This document shows, in pieces, positions 29,782 through 43,525 of a stretch of DNA of 64,000 nt. Position numbers and translations under genes: made by a program. Numbering within the stretch: the stretch's first letter is position 1; each line of letters starts with the position of its first letter. Below the pieces are notes generated by a model, which was not told where the DNA came from, did not search any database, and was given only the letters and a program-made list of their open reading frames with translations. Source of the DNA: Limosilactobacillus caccae (GTDB lineage Bacteria > Bacillota > Bacilli > Lactobacillales > Lactobacillaceae). The stretch covers positions 734,501 through 798,500 of the forward strand of contig NZ_FTOY01000011.1 of assembly GCF_900156885.1 (NCBI RefSeq). Reading direction: 5' to 3'.

Positions 29782-30160
29782 TTAATTCACCTGCAGTCTT
29801 ATCCCTAAGTGCGACTCGTTCTTTAGTAAGACAAATATTAATCTTGAACGTTGAAATATATGTCATTAGTTCTTTAACGGGAAGTAATTGTATTGCCGAA
29901 GTATCTACTTCTAATTCGTCTACCTTTTCAATACCATCAGCAATTTCTGGGTAAATGTAATGGTACACTTCATCGTTAATATATATAAGGCAATTAAATT
30001 GTTGAACGGTAATAGCTCCATAGTATGAAGTAAGCACATGAATGTCGCGGTTCATTCTTTTATGGGATTCCTTACTATTGGCACACAAAATATATTTATC
30101 ATATTTTTCCTCAGTCTGATTAATAAGTCTGATACCTCCACTAAAATCCGAAGTCATCAT
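29759..30160 (-). CDS. Hypothetical phage protein between terminase and portal
   Basis: About 133 residues. Not recognised. It starts at an ATG pair (30160/30157) nine bases after GAGG, overlapping the end of terL. Alpha/beta, soluble: RMNRDIHVLTSYYGAITVQQ, YPEIADGIEKVDELEVD, TYISTFKINICLTKERVA. It could be a packaging accessory or an inserted host-takeover gene. Confidence 0.6.
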   Translation of the reverse strand: MMTSDFSGGIRLINQTEEKYDKYILCANSKESHKRMNRDIHVLTSYYGAITVQQFNCLIYINDEVYHYIYPEIADGIEKVDELEVDTSAIQLLPVKELMTYISTFKINICLTKERVALRDKTAGELNEILETK

Positions 30161-31719
30161 TAAACACATCCTCATCTGTTAAATAATCATCAATGTTTTC
30201 ACGAAAACAAATTGCATAGGCATCAAGTAAAGCATCAGCAGCATCAATCTTATTTGAATAACGGTTCTTATCAATCCGCACACCATTATTATCTGATTTA
30301 AGAATTGCGTTAGCCATTGCACCAGTTAAAATTTCATTACCAGAATGACGAATTCGTTTATCTAAAACGTCATCCCTAAATTGTTTAGTCGGCATTGAAA
30401 GAGTTATCGTTCCTTGTCGAACAGATATTTGTTGCCATTCTGGGTGTCCCTTTTCAATCTGTGTTAATAAGGTTCCGTATTGAGCTGGGTCATAGCAAAT
30501 AGCCTGAACATCAAGGTTATGTTCTCTGACAAATCCATCTAACCATTCATAAACTCGCTCAACATCAATTACCCCTGACTCAAGTTTCGTAATTTCACAT
30601 TGGCCCATCCCCTGTAATCGGACATAATCTAGCCGGTCTGCTTTAATCTTGGCTTCCAAACCATACTTAGTCCCAACAAAGGCATAAGAATTAGCATACC
30701 AATACCCTTCTTGCGGAATTAGCCAGCTAATGGCATATAAGTCAGAAGATTTACCAACGTCAATTCCAAACCAAACCCGTTGTCCATCAATGTCAATTGG
30801 ATCAATTTGCGCTGCATTCCAAGTATCTATATCCATATAACTATCCTCTTCGGCTTGTCGCCACATATTAAAATTCTTAACTAGAACAGAATTCTTTGTT
30901 CCTTTCTGTTTAGCTTCTTTCCACCGCTTTGCTAAATACCCATATACTTGGTCTTGTAAAGCTGGGACACTCAGTATTGGATTAGATTTAATCCAGGTAC
31001 TTTTATCATCAACTTCTGATACATTATCTTGTTCAGCAATGTAGGCAAAATAAGTATCATCAGTAATTTCACCTTTCAAAACCTTCGTCGCATAGGGATA
31101 TTCAATTGTATGCATTGGAACATTCAAGTCAAAGCCGGCTGTTGAAATAATCATAATAAGTGAGTTATGAAGTAAAGCCTGACCGGATTCTAGTAATTCC
31201 ATCATTTCAGTGGTCTTACTTGCAGCATACTCGTCCAGGATTCCAACATGAGGTTCAAAACCATCAACCGTTCCAGTTTCCTTAGAAAGAGAACGAACAT
31301 AAGAATAATCATCTAAGTTACTAATAAGGTCACGGTTAACCTTTGTTCCACGTTTTGTATCACCATCACTAGAACGTAGAGCATTCAAGCGTTTCTTAAT
31401 CATATTAAAAACGATATTCGCTTGCTTTTTGTCGTTAGCAGTACAAAATATTTGCCGAGAGAATTCGGGTGAGTTACCCATCAAGAACTCATACAATGCA
31501 ATTCCGGAAATAAGAATCGACTTACCATTCTTTCGAGCCATTGATAGCATTCCTTTACTAAAGCGTCGTTCAGATGGTTTATCCTTCTTCCACCAGCCAT
31601 ACATATTTGCAATGATGAACCGCTGAAAATCTGCTAAAGGATATGCTCGCATTGTTTTTGGATCTGGAAGTATCTCCATGAATTGAATAACTTTATTAGC
31701 TCGTTCATTATCATAAAAG
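30141..31719 (-). pseudogene. terL: Terminase large subunit, main (3') part, interrupted by an IS
   Basis: Packaging motor ATPase plus nuclease. The visible 525 codons contain the ATPase motor (SMARKNGKSILISGIALYEF as Walker A-like, PHVGILDEYAASKT as Walker B with DE) and the nuclease part (VWFGIDVGKSSDLYAISWLI, ADALLDAYAICF). The first ~45 codons are separated by the IS. Joining 33376-33243 to 31716 downward after removing the IS and one AAG copy restores one frame of about 569 residues, so there is no second lesion. The phage cannot package DNA as it stands. Confidence 0.9.
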
Positions 31720-31776
31720 TGAAGTGCCCTACAATTGTTAGACAAAAGTCTAATGATTGTGGAGGCACTTTTTTGT

Positions 31777-32310
31777 ATGACCAAATATAAAGCGGAACTG
31801 AAAGCCCAAATCGTCCATGAATACCTTTCAACCTCTCAAAGTACTTATGATTTAAGTAAAAAATATAAAATTAGTGAACGACGTATCGCTGAATGGGTAC
31901 AAAGATACCAGCTGAGCGGTGTCGACGCACTTAAAAAACGTCAACACAAACGAACATTCACCACTGATTTTAAATTAAATGTGATAGACTACTACCAAAC
32001 TCATGAGGAATCAATGGCTGAAGTAGCGTCTCGATTTGATATTTTAGTAGCTCAAATCTCTACTTGGCGCTCACAATTTGCGCGAGACGGCATTACAGCC
32101 TTGAAGCCTCACCCGAAAGGTAGGCCGTCTAAAGTGAAACATACTAAGAAGCAGGTTCGTCAACTCGCCAATAAAAGTGAGTTAGAACGATTGAAGGAAG
32201 AATTAGCGAAGAAAAATCAAGAACTTTACGATACCAAGTTGGAGCGGGATATCTTAAAAAAATCGCTGTCCCTGTTCGGACCCTCAAAGCCAGAAAGAAA
32301 ACCCAAATAG
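31777..32310 (+). CDS. IS3-family transposase OrfA (helix-turn-helix subunit)
   Basis: 177 residues. Two HTH units (STYDLSKKYKISERRIAEWV and ESMAEVASRFDILVAQISTW) that bind the IS ends, followed by a coiled-coil oligomerisation helix (NKSELERLKEELAKKNQELY). Start ATG 31777. The run of seven A at 32256-32262 (TTA AAA AAA TCG) is the expected -1 frameshift site producing the OrfAB fusion transposase. Confidence 0.93.
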   Translation: MTKYKAELKAQIVHEYLSTSQSTYDLSKKYKISERRIAEWVQRYQLSGVDALKKRQHKRTFTTDFKLNVIDYYQTHEESMAEVASRFDILVAQISTWRSQFARDGITALKPHPKGRPSKVKHTKKQVRQLANKSELERLKEELAKKNQELYDTKLERDILKKSLSLFGPSKPERKPK

Positions 32311-33206
32311 TGGATCAGATCAGGGACGATCAATCGCAACGCCCAAAGAAACAACGTTATAAGGTTGGCGATATTCTCAAAGCTATCGAACTGCCCAAGG
32401 CAACCTATCATGATGAACGTAACCGAATCGCTAATCATCATGATAAATATACTGAAGTAAAGAAAGTGATTCTTCAAATCGCGCAGCGATTTCAGTTTCG
32501 CGGGCGTTGGATCGCGGGCTATCGTCGTATTCAAATGGAACTAGATAAATTAGGAATACACTTGTCTGGTGATACGATTCGCAAGTTAATGCACGAATTA
32601 AACATTCAAGTAAGTTTATATAATCGCCATCGTAATGGTAAATATTCATCTTATCAGGGTACGATTGGTAAAATTGCGGATAATAAATTGAAACAAAAAT
32701 TCAATGAGAAACGACCTTACCGTGTTATCCATACTGATGTAACACAGGTTCGCTTAGCAGATCGTCAATGGGCTTACATCTCAGTAATGATTGATGAAGC
32801 TAGTCAAGAAATTCTGGCCCTTCAGATTAGCAATAGCCCGAATAAGGATCTAATTACACGAACACTAAAAGAATTAATTAACAATTTACCTGATGCCGCT
32901 CACCCAATCATTCATTCAGATCAAGGGTGGCACTATCAGTTAGGTTACTATACCCAAAAATTAGCCGAGCATCAGTTTATTCAAAGCATGTCGCGCAAAG
33001 GAAACTGCTTAGATAACGCACCAGTTGAAAGTTTCTTTCACTTATTCAAGACTGAATTACTGGCTGGTTTCCCACCATGTAAAGACATCGCGGAATTAAC
33101 CGAGCTTGCGCAAAAATATGTAGAGTATTTTAACAATGTCAGAATAACCTTAAAAACAAAAGGCATGACTCCAGTTGAATACCGGAATCACACCTTAGTA
33201 GCTTAA
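32310..33206 (+). CDS. IS3-family transposase OrfB (DDE integrase core)
   Basis: 298 residues from GTG 32310, in the -1 frame relative to OrfA. The HTH_21-like segment RFQFRGRWIAGYRRIQMELD precedes the rve core with catalytic VIHTDVTQV (first Asp), PIIHSDQGWHYQ (second Asp) and NAPVESFFHLFK (Glu). The frame is complete, so the element may be active. Confidence 0.95.
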   Translation: MDQIRDDQSQRPKKQRYKVGDILKAIELPKATYHDERNRIANHHDKYTEVKKVILQIAQRFQFRGRWIAGYRRIQMELDKLGIHLSGDTIRKLMHELNIQVSLYNRHRNGKYSSYQGTIGKIADNKLKQKFNEKRPYRVIHTDVTQVRLADRQWAYISVMIDEASQEILALQISNSPNKDLITRTLKELINNLPDAAHPIIHSDQGWHYQLGYYTQKLAEHQFIQSMSRKGNCLDNAPVESFFHLFKTELLAGFPPCKDIAELTELAQKYVEYFNNVRITLKTKGMTPVEYRNHTLVA

Positions 33207-33242
33207 TAATTTAATTTTGTCTAACTTTTGTCTTGCACTTCA

Positions 33243-33376
33243 AAGTATTCAAAGTCATCATTATCCGCTTTTTTAAGGTCATTTAAGTATCTTTTTGCAG
33301 CTAAAATCACCTTTTTACCAGCAATTATTTTGCCAGCCACGACCTTTTCAGCATAATCTTTAGCGTAATTCATCAT
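33243..33376 (-). pseudogene. terL: Terminase large subunit, 5' fragment cut off by the IS
   Basis: The minus strand reads MMNYAKDYAEKVVAGKIIAG and continues ADNDDFEYF to the IS boundary. Its ATG overlaps the terS stop (ATGA). In frame with the downstream part once the IS and one target duplicate are removed. Confidence 0.88.
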
Positions 33377-36348: not shown

Positions 36349-36906
36349 CTAAATATAGTAGATATTAGTTGTACCTATTTGCTTAGCATCTTTTTTTTCA
36401 AAAATTAAGTCCTGTTTCGATAATCTTGTAATTATTATATTACCATCACCAAAAGAGTAAATATGATAACCAACTGCAATTAGCATTACATTATAATATA
36501 CTGCATTATTCCCTACAAAATATATACCTTCTATAATAATTAGTATTAAATTCATAATAATTGACGGCAAACTTTCAGGTTTTAACGAAAGTATAGGAAT
36601 AATATATGTTACAAAATAATTTAATACATCTGAATCTTTTAGAACATAATTATCTACTTTAACACTCTTATTTTTTAATCTAGCTTGTTTTTTTAATAGA
36701 CAAAGCCAGAAAACCAAAATCAATAAAGATACTATTGTTAGTATAATCAATACCCACCAAAAAACCGGATTAAGCTTCCATGCCTTTTTAAATTCAGTTA
36801 AAGTAAACTTTTTTAAATTTGATAAAAAAATCATTATAAAAATTGGGATATAAGATGAAACAAATAATACCCATCTAAATACCAAATCAGGCATCTTGCT
36901 AATCAT
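36349..36906 (-). CDS. kwaA: KwaA-like membrane subunit of a Kiwa defence system
   Basis: 185 residues with four predicted spans: VLFVSSYIPIFIMIFLS, VFWWVLIILTIVSLLILVFW, VTYIIPILSL, and a long hydrophobic region from IMNLILIIIEGIYFV to MLIAVGYHIYSF, then a soluble end (IIITRLSKQDLIFEKKDAK). In Kiwa, KwaA is the four-span membrane sensor that recruits KwaB. Assignment rests on topology plus the adjacent DUF4868 gene. It starts three bases after the kwaB stop, so the two are co-translated; the order (kwaB first) is the reverse of the E. coli system. Confidence 0.75.
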   Translation of the reverse strand: MISKMPDLVFRWVLFVSSYIPIFIMIFLSNLKKFTLTEFKKAWKLNPVFWWVLIILTIVSLLILVFWLCLLKKQARLKNKSVKVDNYVLKDSDVLNYFVTYIIPILSLKPESLPSIIMNLILIIIEGIYFVGNNAVYYNVMLIAVGYHIYSFGDGNIIITRLSKQDLIFEKKDAKQIGTTNIYYI

Positions 36907-36908
36907 TA

Positions 36909-37832
36909 TTATCGCCTCTTATCCATACCTTTATGTTTCCCAATTAACGTTTGATAATACGCATCCTGCATTAAACCTATGAACGATGCAACCTGACTTT
37001 CTCCACGGAAGACTAGCTTGTCACCTGCCTCATTAAATTTAATATCTAAATTAAAGTCATTAATTACCTTTTTAGTAGCATCTAAGTCTTCCAAAAATAA
37101 TGCTGCATCATTTTTCCCTTTACTCAGCTTTGCGAGTCTTTTGACATAGCTTTGATTATCTAAAGCTTCTTCCCTCAGTTTGTCAAAATTCTCAATTTTA
37201 TCGGCTAATTTTGTATTACTTAGTACAGACTTAGCCTTCTCAACAAATTTACTACGAAGATTAAAGATTCTTTCAAAAGAAATATGTTGAAAAATATAAA
37301 TATCCTCTTCATCCATAATAAAGTCAATATATTCATCTGTTGCAAGCATGTCACTATTTTTTAGTTTTTGAAACGTTCCAGCATTTAGGTAACCTATAAA
37401 TCCCTTCTTGAAACTTTTAAACTTTTTTGTTCGTCTAAAAACTAGCAGAGATTTTAATTCACCATTCTTATCTTTATATGGAAATTCATAAATAAAACAG
37501 TTAAAACTATCATTATTAAAATTAAATTTTTGAAGTGGCTTATCCAAAGCTTCTTTTAATGTACTAATCGGTTTTACTGATTTAACTTTAGCTTTTTCTA
37601 CAACATTATCAAGCGTTCCAGTTGGATTATACTGAGCTTGAGGGCACCCTTCATACCTAGTTAGTTCATCTTGCGCAATAGATTGAAGCTGCTGCTTGAA
37701 AGTATTCCCAATTGTTGGGTTTACTACACTATAGCCTCTTCCTTTTATACTATTAACATTGTGAACCATATAAAGATTCACATCATCTGAATCAACTTTT
37801 TTAACAACGTCTAGCATCTCATCAAGATTCAT
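36909..37832 (-). CDS. kwaB: KwaB-like (DUF4868) effector of a Kiwa defence system
   Basis: 307 residues from ATG 37832 (GGGAG eight bases before). The sequence has the DUF4868 pattern: INSIKGRGYS-like start, LKSLLVFRRTKKFKSFKKGF, EYIDFIMDEEDIYIFQHISF, ERIFNLRSKFVEKAKSVL, and the C-terminal KLVFRGESQVASFIGLMQDA. KwaB binds invading DNA at the membrane with KwaA. The pair is AT-rich and lies between the structured RNA and the peptide modules, outside any structural block, as expected for a cargo defence locus. Confidence 0.82.
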   Translation of the reverse strand: MNLDEMLDVVKKVDSDDVNLYMVHNVNSIKGRGYSVVNPTIGNTFKQQLQSIAQDELTRYEGCPQAQYNPTGTLDNVVEKAKVKSVKPISTLKEALDKPLQKFNFNNDSFNCFIYEFPYKDKNGELKSLLVFRRTKKFKSFKKGFIGYLNAGTFQKLKNSDMLATDEYIDFIMDEEDIYIFQHISFERIFNLRSKFVEKAKSVLSNTKLADKIENFDKLREEALDNQSYVKRLAKLSKGKNDAALFLEDLDATKKVINDFNLDIKFNEAGDKLVFRGESQVASFIGLMQDAYYQTLIGKHKGMDKRR

Positions 37833-37872
37833 ATCATTCTCTCCCAATTTATTATTTCATTATCATTTTACC

Positions 37873-38630
37873 AAAAAAAAGAGAGCAACTAAGCTCTCTA
37901 AATGAAATAATATCGGGATATAGTTTAGCGTCATCGCGGACAATAGCTAAGAGACAGATTCGAACTGTACTTTTGTCACACAAGACTGAGTAATGTGTGC
38001 CCACCGTGGATCTTAGCTAGCAATGTGACCCGTTTACATTGCTATATACCATAATTATCAATGTACGGGTGAAGAAGGAGCTGCAAAATTTACCTCCTTT
38101 CTTCTGATAATCATGATATAAAAACTTAGTAGGGCTTTGCACCCATACAGCCTTGAAGCCTAAGTATAATCAGGACCACACAATCACCGCACCCGGTCGT
38201 AGTTTTCCGCCTACTCCTGTAACAGTATTGCTGTCCATTCATACGGTAATCCTTTAGCCGCTGAGTTAGATTACGTACTCTTCTGCTGATCACAGCACGG
38301 TTGCTACGAGACTATCAGAGTAGCATGTAAATTTAATGATAAAGGAGATCTTCCAATCTTCCAAAACGCACAAACCAAATTTAATCGTTACCGTAAATTT
38401 ATTTTTGAAGTTAATGATAGTCTCAACGTGGATTATGGGGCTCAGACCCATCAGTCAGTCAAACATCTGATCCACACTCAAGCTTAACAAGAGATCCCGT
38501 GTGGTATTAAGCATAGAAATCTCTTTCCTTAAAGCCAGAATCCTAAATTTGAGTAGTTAAAGGCTTGCTCAGGCACAATTGGGGGTCACAAGGCTACATC
38601 GCTAACCTTCCGACAATATCATTTTCGCAC
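37873..38630 (-). ncRNA. Large ornate non-coding RNA (GOLLD/ROOL-like) with tRNA-like 3' domain
   Basis: No credible frame exists in about 800 bp. The minus strand folds extensively. Ends pair with each other: AAATGA (38624-38619)/TCATTT (37905-37900) and TTAGCG/CGCTAA (38600-38607 with 37923-37930). A hairpin at 38302-38325 has a 12-base loop, ten of which are complementary to 38415-38424 (pseudoknot). A 12-bp hairpin lies at 38028-38070. A tRNA-like domain has a 9-bp acceptor-like stem (38011-38019 with 37944-37952) and a TTCGAAT T-loop (37958-37964). A perfect terminator ends it (GAGAGC...GCTCTC, T8; 37873-37898). Size, prophage setting and host group match GOLLD; ROOL is the alternative. 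Confidence 0.7.
37900..38019 (-). tRNA. tRNA-like domain inside the large ncRNA, probably not a functional tRNA
   Basis: Acceptor GCTAAGA/TCTTAGC, T-arm ACAG-TTCGAAT-CTGT, and a CACACA/TGTGTG anticodon-like stem. However the middle loop has 11 bases, the D-arm is minimal (CCACGGTGG), and no CCA is encoded. It resembles the tRNA or tRNA-like parts reported with GOLLD RNAs. Confidence 0.45.
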
Positions 38631-38647
38631 TTAAAAACGGTCTTGAA

Positions 38648-38676
38648 GTTCACTCATAGTTCACTGTTTGTTCACT
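38648..38676. promoter_or_regulatory. Three GTTCACT repeats at exact 11-bp spacing, upstream of the large ncRNA
   Basis: GTTCACT at 38648-38654, 38659-38665 and 38670-38676. They overlap the last codons of the ArpU-like gene and end about 20-40 bp before the inferred 5' end of the ncRNA. Helical phasing suggests cooperative binding by an activator, perhaps the late regulator itself. Confidence 0.6.
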
Positions 38677-39123
38677 TTTTTCGTTCTTGTATGCATGAAG
38701 GTCTTCTAGTAAGTCAGCATCCCCGAGCAAACTAGTATATCTTTCCAGCGTATCCGCAAACTCACTACAAGCAATTTTTAAGTAATGATAATAGCGTGTT
38801 TTCTCATAACCAATCTGATTAGCTACTTCCCAATCTTTTTTATTTTCAATAAACTTAGCAATTAATATTCGCCTACTTCTAAGACTGCATGCGTTGAGTG
38901 CTTGAGCGATTGTCTCAACCAAGAGATGGTAATTAGCAACTTTAACCATTTGATTTTCCATCGAATTACCAGTGGCACTTGCTCTTGGCATTCCGTCAAT
39001 TTGTGGGGATGTTAGCTTGATTCCTCCACCTGCTAAGCGACATAAGCGTGCATATTCGTCCTTGAAGAAGTAACGAACATTGTCAGTAGTTCCGTCAACA
39101 TCTAATTCTTTCAAAAGCCCCAC
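38650..39123 (-). CDS. ArpU-like late transcriptional regulator
   Basis: 157 residues. ArpU/RinA-type proteins activate phage late operons and are encoded just before the packaging genes. Here VETIAQALNACSLRSRRILI, AKFIENKKDWEVANQIGYEK and TRYYHYLKIACSEFADTLER match a sigma-factor region-4-like HTH. I prefer GTG 39123 (GGGGAGAG eight bases upstream) to the ATG at 39141, which lies before that ribosome site. Confidence 0.82.
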   Translation of the reverse strand: MGLLKELDVDGTTDNVRYFFKDEYARLCRLAGGGIKLTSPQIDGMPRASATGNSMENQMVKVANYHLLVETIAQALNACSLRSRRILIAKFIENKKDWEVANQIGYEKTRYYHYLKIACSEFADTLERYTSLLGDADLLEDLHAYKNEKSEQTVNYE

Positions 39124-39158
39124 TTTTAGCACTCTCCCCATTTTGATATAATATTTAT

Positions 39159-42538: not shown

Positions 42539-43525
42539 TCAAATCCCTGTCATTACAGACATAATCTTGTTGTTATCCTCGTTTGCTAGCTTGTCTAGCA
42601 GGTGGATATAGACACGTTGGGTTGTTTCTGTATTGCCGTGGCCTAACCGTTTAGCAACACTTTGAATTGAAACACGGTTAGCAATTAGCAGGGATGCATG
42701 AGTATGACGCAAACCATGAACTGAAATTGGTGGTACTCCCGCCTGGTCACACATTTCCTTTAACTCTTTATTAAACACTGAATTATAAATGTGATTACCA
42801 CCTCGGGTATTAGTACGAGAGTCACTAGCATACTAATGAGCCCAGATTGACTCATCTTCATTTACCCCATCCAGGTGGCGTTGTAAGTCAGTTAATGCCT
42901 TAAAATCAATTAGGATTTGCCTAACAGAATACTTGTTCTTAGTCGGCATAAAGTCCCCAGGTTTAACTTGAGAGTAATCTATTTTCTTGTAGTTCAGTGT
43001 CTTATTGACGTAAATAGACATGTTATTCATATCAACATCAGCTGGAGTAAGGCCAAGAACCTCAGCAAATCGCAAGCCAGTACGTAACGTAAAATCAAAG
43101 AAGTCACCATATCCGCTTTGATCAGCATTAAAGACTTGTTCAAGTTTATGAACCTCATCCATTTCTAGCCACTTCTTAAGCTTCTTTTTCTTCTTAACTT
43201 GAGAGGTAATACGAATCTTGTAGCATGGATCACGGGAAATCCATCCCTCATAGACCGCATCTCTGATTGGTGCTTCTAGTAAGCGATAGAAATTACGAAC
43301 AGTTACTTTTTCATGCGTTTGTCCATAAGCATTGATGAGCTTTTGTATATCAGCTCGGGTTATTTTATCTAGCATTAGATCTGGAGCAAGTTTCTTAATT
43401 TGTTTACCTGTCAAAATATATCTTTGGTAAGTAACATCACGGACATCCCCGTATTTGTAGGTTTCATACCATTCCTTGTAATACTTCCAGAACTTAATAG
43501 CTCTCTTTTTTCCAACTTGTACCAT
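42539..43525 (-). pseudogene. Second tyrosine recombinase, interrupted by one in-frame amber codon
   Basis: Read continuously, 42539-43525 encodes a ~328-residue integrase: core-binding domain (TYKYGDVRDVTYQRYILTGK), catalytic Arg in FTLRTGLRFAEVLGL, HGLRHTHASLL, LGHGNTETTQRVYIHLLD. A TAG at 42833-42835 lies between NEDESIWAH and YASDSRTNT in the same frame, with no other lesion. It is located inside the early/replication operon, far from the attachment site, so it was not the lysogeny integrase; it may derive from an inserted element or serve another recombination. Confidence 0.85.

Follow-up and report, generated by a model that had tools for sequence, protein, structure and literature searches.

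An extended Lacto-phage-1 RNA behind an ArpU-family gene in a Limosilactobacillus caccae prophage, a candidate counterpart of GOLLD and ROOL

A structured RNA of about 740 nt surrounds the Lacto-phage-1 core

A prophage of Limosilactobacillus caccae encodes a structured RNA of approximately 740 nt on the minus strand, at about 37873-38612 of the 64,000-nt stretch of DNA analyzed here (the window). While the 81-nt core of this RNA is already known to Rfam as Lacto-phage-1 (RF03004), the larger RNA is a large ornate phage RNA, and the best reading of the data is that it is analogous to GOLLD and ROOL, yet unrelated to them in sequence. The architecture of the RNA (Table 1) is well supported; its expression, processing and function are what we infer from that architecture and its setting.

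The extent of the RNA, about 38612-37873, follows from a promoter-like box at 38621-38607 and a terminator at 37899-37880, with the start at about 38612 being a prediction. An earlier note, made from the letters of the window, had described roughly 760 nt without a reading frame, and this description held: with a minimum ORF length of 50 aa, 37873-38630 contains three frames, all on the minus strand, of 50, 53 and 55 aa, and none of these three inner ORFs has a Pfam match at E<=0.01. An ORF of 56 aa on the opposite strand overlaps the 5' edge of the RNA and lay outside the Pfam scan of the inner ORFs. The stretch has a more stable fold than any of 20 shuffled versions (z -3.0), and a helix joining its two ends is possible.

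Among Rfam models, RF03004 provided the sole match above gathering score in the whole window (93.2 bits against a gathering score of 50), full-length over model positions 1-81 and spanning about a tenth of the RNA. The Rfam model comprises 81 positions with three short hairpins, and the pseudoknot partner, the three tRNA-like domains, the promoter and the terminator described below all lie outside it. The earlier note had pointed to the models for GOLLD (RF02032) and ROOL (RF03087). Neither the GOLLD model, which represents a conserved 3' domain, nor that of ROOL gave a match in 37800-38700 with E<=5; a scan of 18 RF03004 loci, including that of the window, was equally negative for both at E<=0.05. 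This leaves RF03004 as the one good match, and membership in either family was rejected on these results. Four sub-threshold matches in 37800-38700 (E<=5) were all to eukaryotic RNA families and resemble chance hits. ARAGORN detected no tRNA gene in the window and RF00005 was likewise without a match at gathering score; identity as a tRNA gene was rejected on the negative ARAGORN result.

Lacto-phage-1 was reportedly described in a paper of 2017. A literature search by the name Lacto-phage-1 found no paper, and in the literature searched, which did not include that 2017 paper, the larger RNA, its pseudoknot, its tRNA-like modules and the late slot discussed below are undescribed.

Table 1. Features of the RNA locus, listed from 5' to 3' along the minus strand in window coordinates (TLS, tRNA-like element)
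Feature	Position	Strand	Remarks
ArpU-family late transcription activator gene	38650..39141	-	directly upstream of the RNA
GTGAAC three times, 11-bp period, at the arpU 3' end	38648..38675	-	proposed activator sites
Promoter-like box TGATATTGTCGGAAG	38607..38621	-	similar box in relatives
Degenerate copy of 27-nt phage pseudoknot motif	38550..38576	-	first stem weak by eye
TLS1, tRNA-like domain that has an acceptor stem, a T-arm and a short D-like arm but lacks an anticodon arm	38427..38476	-	2 bases 5' of the pseudoknot strand
Long-range pseudoknot (10 bp), 5' strand	38415..38424	-	exact complement of 38308-38317
Lacto-phage-1 (RF03004) core: hairpin 1, hairpin 2, H-type pseudoknot	38246..38324	-	93.2 bits
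Hairpin-1 loop, 3' strand of long-range pseudoknot	38308..38317	-	pairs with 38415-38424
Hairpin 2	38297-38293/38288-38284	-	126/135 pairs
H-type pseudoknot, S1 and S2	38280-38277/38266-38263 with 38274-38269/38251-38246	-	S1 107/108, S2 162/162 pairs
Conserved module GGAC...GTTACAGGAGTAGGCGGAAAACTACGACCGGGTGCGG...GTCC	38173..38236	-	alignment and scan; absent or replaced in L002, L007, L008, L009, L067
TLS2, small tRNA-like element	38124..38165	-	acceptor ACTTAG/CTAAGT, T-loop TGCAAAG; consensus fold
Long hairpin	38043..38120	-	consensus fold, nine loci (8 distinct rows)
Hairpin AGCAATGT/ACATTGCT	38019..38042	-	compensated in relatives as AGCAGTGC/GCACTGCT; consensus fold
TLS3, tRNA-like element of 72 nt, TTCGAAT T-loop	37946..38017	-	TLS scan, consensus fold
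Possible end-to-end helix, 3' strand	37923..37930	-	partner 38600-38607, 7/8 pairs by eye
Intrinsic terminator AGAGAGCTTAGTTGCTCTCT and T-run	37873..37899	-	stem 37899-37880, T-run to 37873

Relatives of the RNA and the loci compared

Within the genus, 16 of 50 genomes contain RF03004 (13 above cut-off); in the family it was found in 8 of 396 genomes (7 above cut-off), representing 1 of 40 genera, and in the order in 1 of 295 genomes, which was the window's own. The exact core pattern recovered 15 viral stretches together with three genome records (Limosilactobacillus balticus, L. caviae and a Lactobacillus sp.). In many loci the likeness reaches far past the 81-nt core, and the phage genes around the Lacto-phage-1 loci include ArpU and terminase neighbors.

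Removal of near-duplicates left 27 loci for the pair counts, repeats, box and terminators, and 26 for later alignments and the first scan for tRNA-like elements. Close relatives are still present among the 27 loci, and double-changed cells in the counts below are to be read as sequences rather than as independent events. Four loci from one genome (L028, L036, L057 and L058) did not enter the pair counts, on account of in-place inversions of gene-sized segments, as shown for L058; L028 and L036 were retained in the 36-locus partner search and the first alignment. In L057 and L058, despite these inversions, the gene order and the RNA are as in the relatives (from an alignment for L058, from the strand of ArpU alone for L057), and the inversions are probably an artefact of the record.

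Covariation supports two pseudoknots in and around the core

The pseudoknot of 10 bp that had been proposed between a loop and an upstream strand is exact in the window and recurs in the relatives. Of 36 loci, 33 have a complement of the hairpin-1 loop (TGATAGTCTC in the window) with at most one mismatch at a distance of 57-127 nt on the upstream side, and in the three loci without a partner (L012, L013 and L018) fewer than 90 nt of upstream sequence are present. Loop and partner vary together, the combinations being TGATAGTCTC/GAGACTATCA, TGCTAGTCTC/GAGACTAGCA and TCATCATCTC/GAGATGATGA. In the 27 loci, 269 of 270 pairs are formed, compared to a maximum of 262 in 500 shuffles, and both sides have changed at 4 of 10 positions (10 cells); a partner search that admits at most one mismatch is biased toward pairing, and the constant site of the partner behind TLS1 serves as the control.

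Within the core, the two stems of the H-type pseudoknot form 107 of 108 pairs (S1; shuffle maximum 101) and 162 of 162 pairs (S2; shuffle maximum 153, with both sides changed at 4 of the 6 positions), and hairpin 2 forms 126 of 135 pairs against a shuffle maximum of 119, all across the 27 loci. Hairpin 1 was left out of the pair counts. The structure line of RF03004 holds hairpins 1 and 2 and S1, without S2 and without the long-range pairing.

tRNA-like elements within the RNA

The acceptor stem of TLS1, the tRNA-like domain just upstream of the core, forms 150 of 150 pairs in 25 loci, with a shuffle maximum of 127 and double changes at all 6 of 6 positions (24 cells); for this count the strands were read manually in 25 of the 27 loci and verified by a script, L008 having no TLS1 by eye and L011 not having been entered. 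Two or three bases separate the end of TLS1 from the pseudoknot strand in 24 of the 25 loci, and the exception, L007, carries an insert. The compensatory changes in the pseudoknots and in TLS1 answer the covariation check on homologous prophages that the earlier note had suggested. Its picture of a prophage RNA that is large and ornate, is associated with tRNAs and contains a long-range pseudoknot was right, and the helices covary. The tRNA-like domain with a TTCGAAT loop that it had recognized is TLS3, an element of 72 nt at 38017-37946.

Real tRNAs are present in or near the RNA in several relatives, and in L033 a real tRNA-Arg starts at the place that corresponds to TLS2. A strict scan for a 7-bp acceptor, T-arm and T-loop detected 24 elements in the 26 Lacto-phage-1 loci, some of which are real tRNAs, compared to 0.43 expected from dinucleotide shuffles. 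CCA follows the acceptor directly in none of 51 listed tRNA-like elements, and TT falls within the first four bases of the trailer in 44 of the 51; comparable trailers follow 18 of 28 examined host tRNAs, out of 41 tRNAs in the genome (all by our own count). A loose script for the letters CCA around the tRNA end scored 6 of 28 tRNAs of the host and 4 of 22 from phage slots, mostly acceptor letters when inspected by eye. In Firmicutes, CCA-less tRNAs with such trailers are substrates of RNase Z, and the tRNA-like elements here may be cut as well.

Mitochondrial transcripts are punctuated by tRNAs, and tmRNA carries a tRNA-like domain. In the window, too, tRNA-shaped elements are possible cut marks for RNase P and RNase Z in a putative processing pathway, but unlike those of mitochondrial transcripts and tmRNA, they flank structured RNA in a phage transcript.

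The 3' half and the terminator

The 3' halves of the RNA vary widely between relatives. For the window's type, which contains TLS2, two hairpins and TLS3, a consensus fold of nine loci (8 distinct rows) has 524 of 526 cells paired and double changes at 6 positions (13 cells), as judged on its own source alignment and without shuffles. This consensus fold of nine loci supports the 3' helices among the several long hairpins that had been noted. The terminator seen in the window was confirmed as intrinsic, with its stem at 37899-37880 and its T-run to 37873; among the 27 loci, 22 have a terminator-like site ahead of the first following ORF of 120 aa or more and 5 have none, in a count made without a chance control.

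An ArpU-family gene, repeats and a promoter-like box precede the RNA

The gene directly upstream matches the ArpU-family model TIGR01637 with 77 bits (cut-off 43.1) and the transcriptional activators of phrog_248 with an E of 9e-35. When TIGR01637 was applied to nine upstream ORFs (from the window, six other Lacto-phage-1 loci, one GOLLD locus and one ROOL locus), three scored above the cut-off; four of the remaining six matched below it (E<=5.2e-6) and two were unmatched, one of which (L045) matches phrog_248.

Within the window, GTGAACNNNNNGTGAAC with at most two mismatches, a pattern not rare by chance, was found at the 3' end of arpU alone, and both matches are exact. Summed over the 27 loci, the repeat score is 244 at lag 11 and 209 at lag 22, compared to 4-29 for the remaining lags between 6 and 21. 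In 24 of 27 loci the top-scoring lag is 11 or 22, the exceptions being L004, L066 and L067, and by eye the repeat motif varies with the type of activator. Downstream of the repeats, 23 of the 27 loci have a box like TGGTATTGTCGAAAG with no more than 4 mismatches in 15, as counted without a chance control; in L007, L032, L034 and L067 the best match lies elsewhere.

The repeats at the arpU 3' end are analogous to those of two late promoters covered in PMC13123087. In the staphylococcal phage phi13, the gene for the late regulator Ltr is reported to carry in its 3' end four repeats that the late promoter requires, and the paper cites the Alt protein of TP901-1 as binding four direct repeats (PMC13123087). 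Unlike the setting in the window with its RNA, the terms 'non-coding' and 'ncRNA' were searched for in that paper without a hit (PMC13123087).

In one locus each, GOLLD and ROOL occupy the same slot

According to PMC12286853, GOLLD is a large RNA of phages and prophages whose expression goes up on phage induction, and both GOLLD and ROOL form RNA cages whose purpose is unknown. The earlier note had taken the RNA of the window for a member or a divergent relative of these families. While the absence of a model match removes the family assignment, the setting is shared: the place behind an ArpU-family gene is taken by GOLLD in L044 and by ROOL in L064. In each, the RNA comes after the ArpU-family gene (TIGR01637 49.9 bits in L044; 34.2 bits, below cut-off, in L064) and, by eye, after 11-bp repeats and a promoter-like box, and both are accompanied by tRNAs, which stand ahead of the GOLLD in L044 and directly after the ROOL in L064. 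The slot is shared by 1 of 4 ROOL loci and 1 of 2 GOLLD loci; unlike the RNA of the window, the other three ROOLs are not behind ArpU, and the second GOLLD is cut by a contig end. The 5' end of the L064 ROOL has a tRNA-like element and a GACC..GTC..AAACT motif in common with the RNA of the window.

We also noticed that this motif, in its 27-nt form GACC-YRRGYA-MGTC-NNN-AAACT-RCYYA, is present in at least 120 phage stretches (viral contigs L089-L208), compared to 5 for the reversed pattern, with further copies at 38550-38576 of the window (degenerate) and at the ROOL 5' end in L064. Among the matches listed for a looser form, 118 distinct copies were present, with 6/6 pairs in the second stem in 61, 5/6 in 49, and compensatory types. 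When 66 copies were tested, 46 were not within an ORF of 80 aa or more, and the median distance is 39 nt after the upstream ORF. Rfam at E<=2 returned no family at the motif in 20 loci.

The slot of phage JNU_P5 contains, by eye, an ArpU-like gene, repeats and two tRNA-like elements, one of which scores as a tRNA, but no core, and the scanned stretch has no Lacto-phage-1 match at gathering score. This phage was the sole match to the RNA in the phage collection, and the match is confined to the 3' end (query 717-799).

TIGR01637 was found in 56 of 151 Lactobacillaceae genomes, and the best 30 loci, the window's among them, were analyzed. Within 1 kb behind these 30 ArpU genes there are 27 tRNA-like elements in 18 loci and none in the other 12, compared to 0.9 expected from plain shuffles in a scan that covered all DNA, not just intergenic DNA, and counted real tRNAs (ARAGORN, 6 of 30 loci). 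The repeat signal in these loci is 102 at lag 11, 75 at lag 22 and at most 18 elsewhere. At gathering score, RF03004 was found in the window's locus alone among the 30, and GOLLD and ROOL in none of them. Behind other ArpU genes (L217, L223, L226, L227 and L234), we observed series of small tRNA-like elements with, by eye, hairpins between them and no Rfam match other than tRNA; these series are candidates for further unnamed late RNAs.

tRNA-shaped elements also stand at the ends of some known RNAs of this kind. A tRNA or tRNA-like element starts 6-18 nt past the GOLLD 3' end in 10 of 31 GOLLD-like viral loci (distinct, some of them near relatives, and defined by motif rather than by the RF02032 model); 21 of the 31 have none within 30 nt, and one locus beyond the 10 has one within 300 nt. 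In L042 a tRNA-Lys begins at 2041, the ROOL model match having ended at 2035, and in L044 the GOLLD match ends at 259 with a tRNA match from 252. These arrangements suggest that tRNA-shaped elements may set the RNA ends in part of the GOLLD/ROOL-type RNAs. This is not a general rule, because 20 of the 31 GOLLD-like loci have no such element within 300 nt downstream and a stricter two-motif filter gave two loci, 0/2 with an adjacent tRNA; the looser filter was chosen after that result.

Proposed role of the RNA and alternative explanations

Sequence supports the structure of the RNA, its conservation and its placement downstream of a repeat-bearing activator gene and ahead of a terminator, and on balance we favor the view that this is a late-phase prophage non-coding RNA of about 740 nt, induced by ArpU, punctuated by tRNA-like elements and structural, which does the job of GOLLD or ROOL. 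ArpU would switch the RNA on after induction, and host RNase P and RNase Z would cut at the tRNA-like elements, with cuts at TLS1 and TLS2 freeing a core of about 260 nt that starts UUGAGACUAUC, plus 3' pieces. The RNA would then accumulate as a structural, possibly oligomeric, late RNA, taking over in its phage what GOLLD or ROOL does in related phages; that it might oligomerize is pure analogy. If a third RNA, unrelated in sequence to the other two, sits in one regulatory slot, function would be marked by the slot rather than by the sequence, and a shared slot would fix the time of action, that of the first late-phase product. In this way, a small Rfam entry grows into a large RNA whose promoter, ends and modules can be tested.

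A wider reading, which we put forward tentatively, is that ArpU-type Lactobacillaceae phages open late transcription with an RNA slot, in which interchangeable RNAs (extended Lacto-phage-1, GOLLD, ROOL and others yet unnamed) stand between punctuation elements that lack an anticodon arm and set the mature ends through RNase P and RNase Z. If true, such a punctuated slot would give a simple and testable reason for the frequent neighborhood of GOLLD or ROOL and tRNAs.

The strongest rival to a structural late RNA, though an unlikely one, is a cis-acting leader of the late operon, that is, an attenuator or antitermination element that lets polymerase pass the terminator into the terminase genes. 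Such a leader would fit an RNA that is the first element after the predicted ArpU promoter, shares its strand with the terminase genes and is separated from them by a terminator, but other genes, varying among prophages, lie between the RNA and the terminase, and a leader has no need of such size, of several tRNA-like elements or of replacement by GOLLD or ROOL in the slot. We regard it as distinctly improbable that the slot is a tRNA array in which phage tRNAs decay, the RNA having little function besides carrying them. Although some relatives have real tRNAs there and the 3' halves diverge widely, TLS1 lacks an anticodon arm and still keeps every acceptor pair, each of the six positions having changed on both sides, and covariation is seen in the core pseudoknots as well; this covariation of TLS1 and core implies selection on structure rather than decay.

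The remaining explanations are far less probable. There is a slim chance that the conserved element acts as DNA, for packaging or recombination, as its location upstream of the terminase genes would allow; against this, the compensatory changes preserve RNA pairing, G-T pairs included, and a terminator stands at the end. Descent from GOLLD or ROOL, as a divergent member, is if anything slightly more doubtful still: slot, size and tRNA association are in common, as are the tRNA-like element and motif at the 5' end of the L064 ROOL, but the family models are without a match at the thresholds given above and the shared motif is a widespread phage element. A decayed protein gene, which the earlier note had named as a possible refutation, was rejected and has practically no standing: nothing was found in its favor, the three inner ORFs have no Pfam match, and it is the helices that covary.

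Other features of the prophage

Directly behind the RNA is a Kiwa defense pair, KwaB and KwaA, at 36349-37847 on the minus strand (PADLOC E 1e-104 for KwaB, below the cut-off of the NCBIfam model, and 1e-74 for KwaA). Kiwa-like pairs are also found after the JNU_P5 slot, as cargo, and near ROOL in L062. An insertion sequence with two ORFs, at 31735-33206 on the plus strand, carries transposase and integrase-core domains and is presumably IS3-like. It lies inside the large terminase gene, whose start is at 33221-33376, as judged by likeness to relatives, and whose remainder is at 30141-31784; given this interruption, the prophage is probably defective. A tyrosine integrase split between two ORFs, at 42539-43525 on the minus strand, is located in the middle of the prophage.
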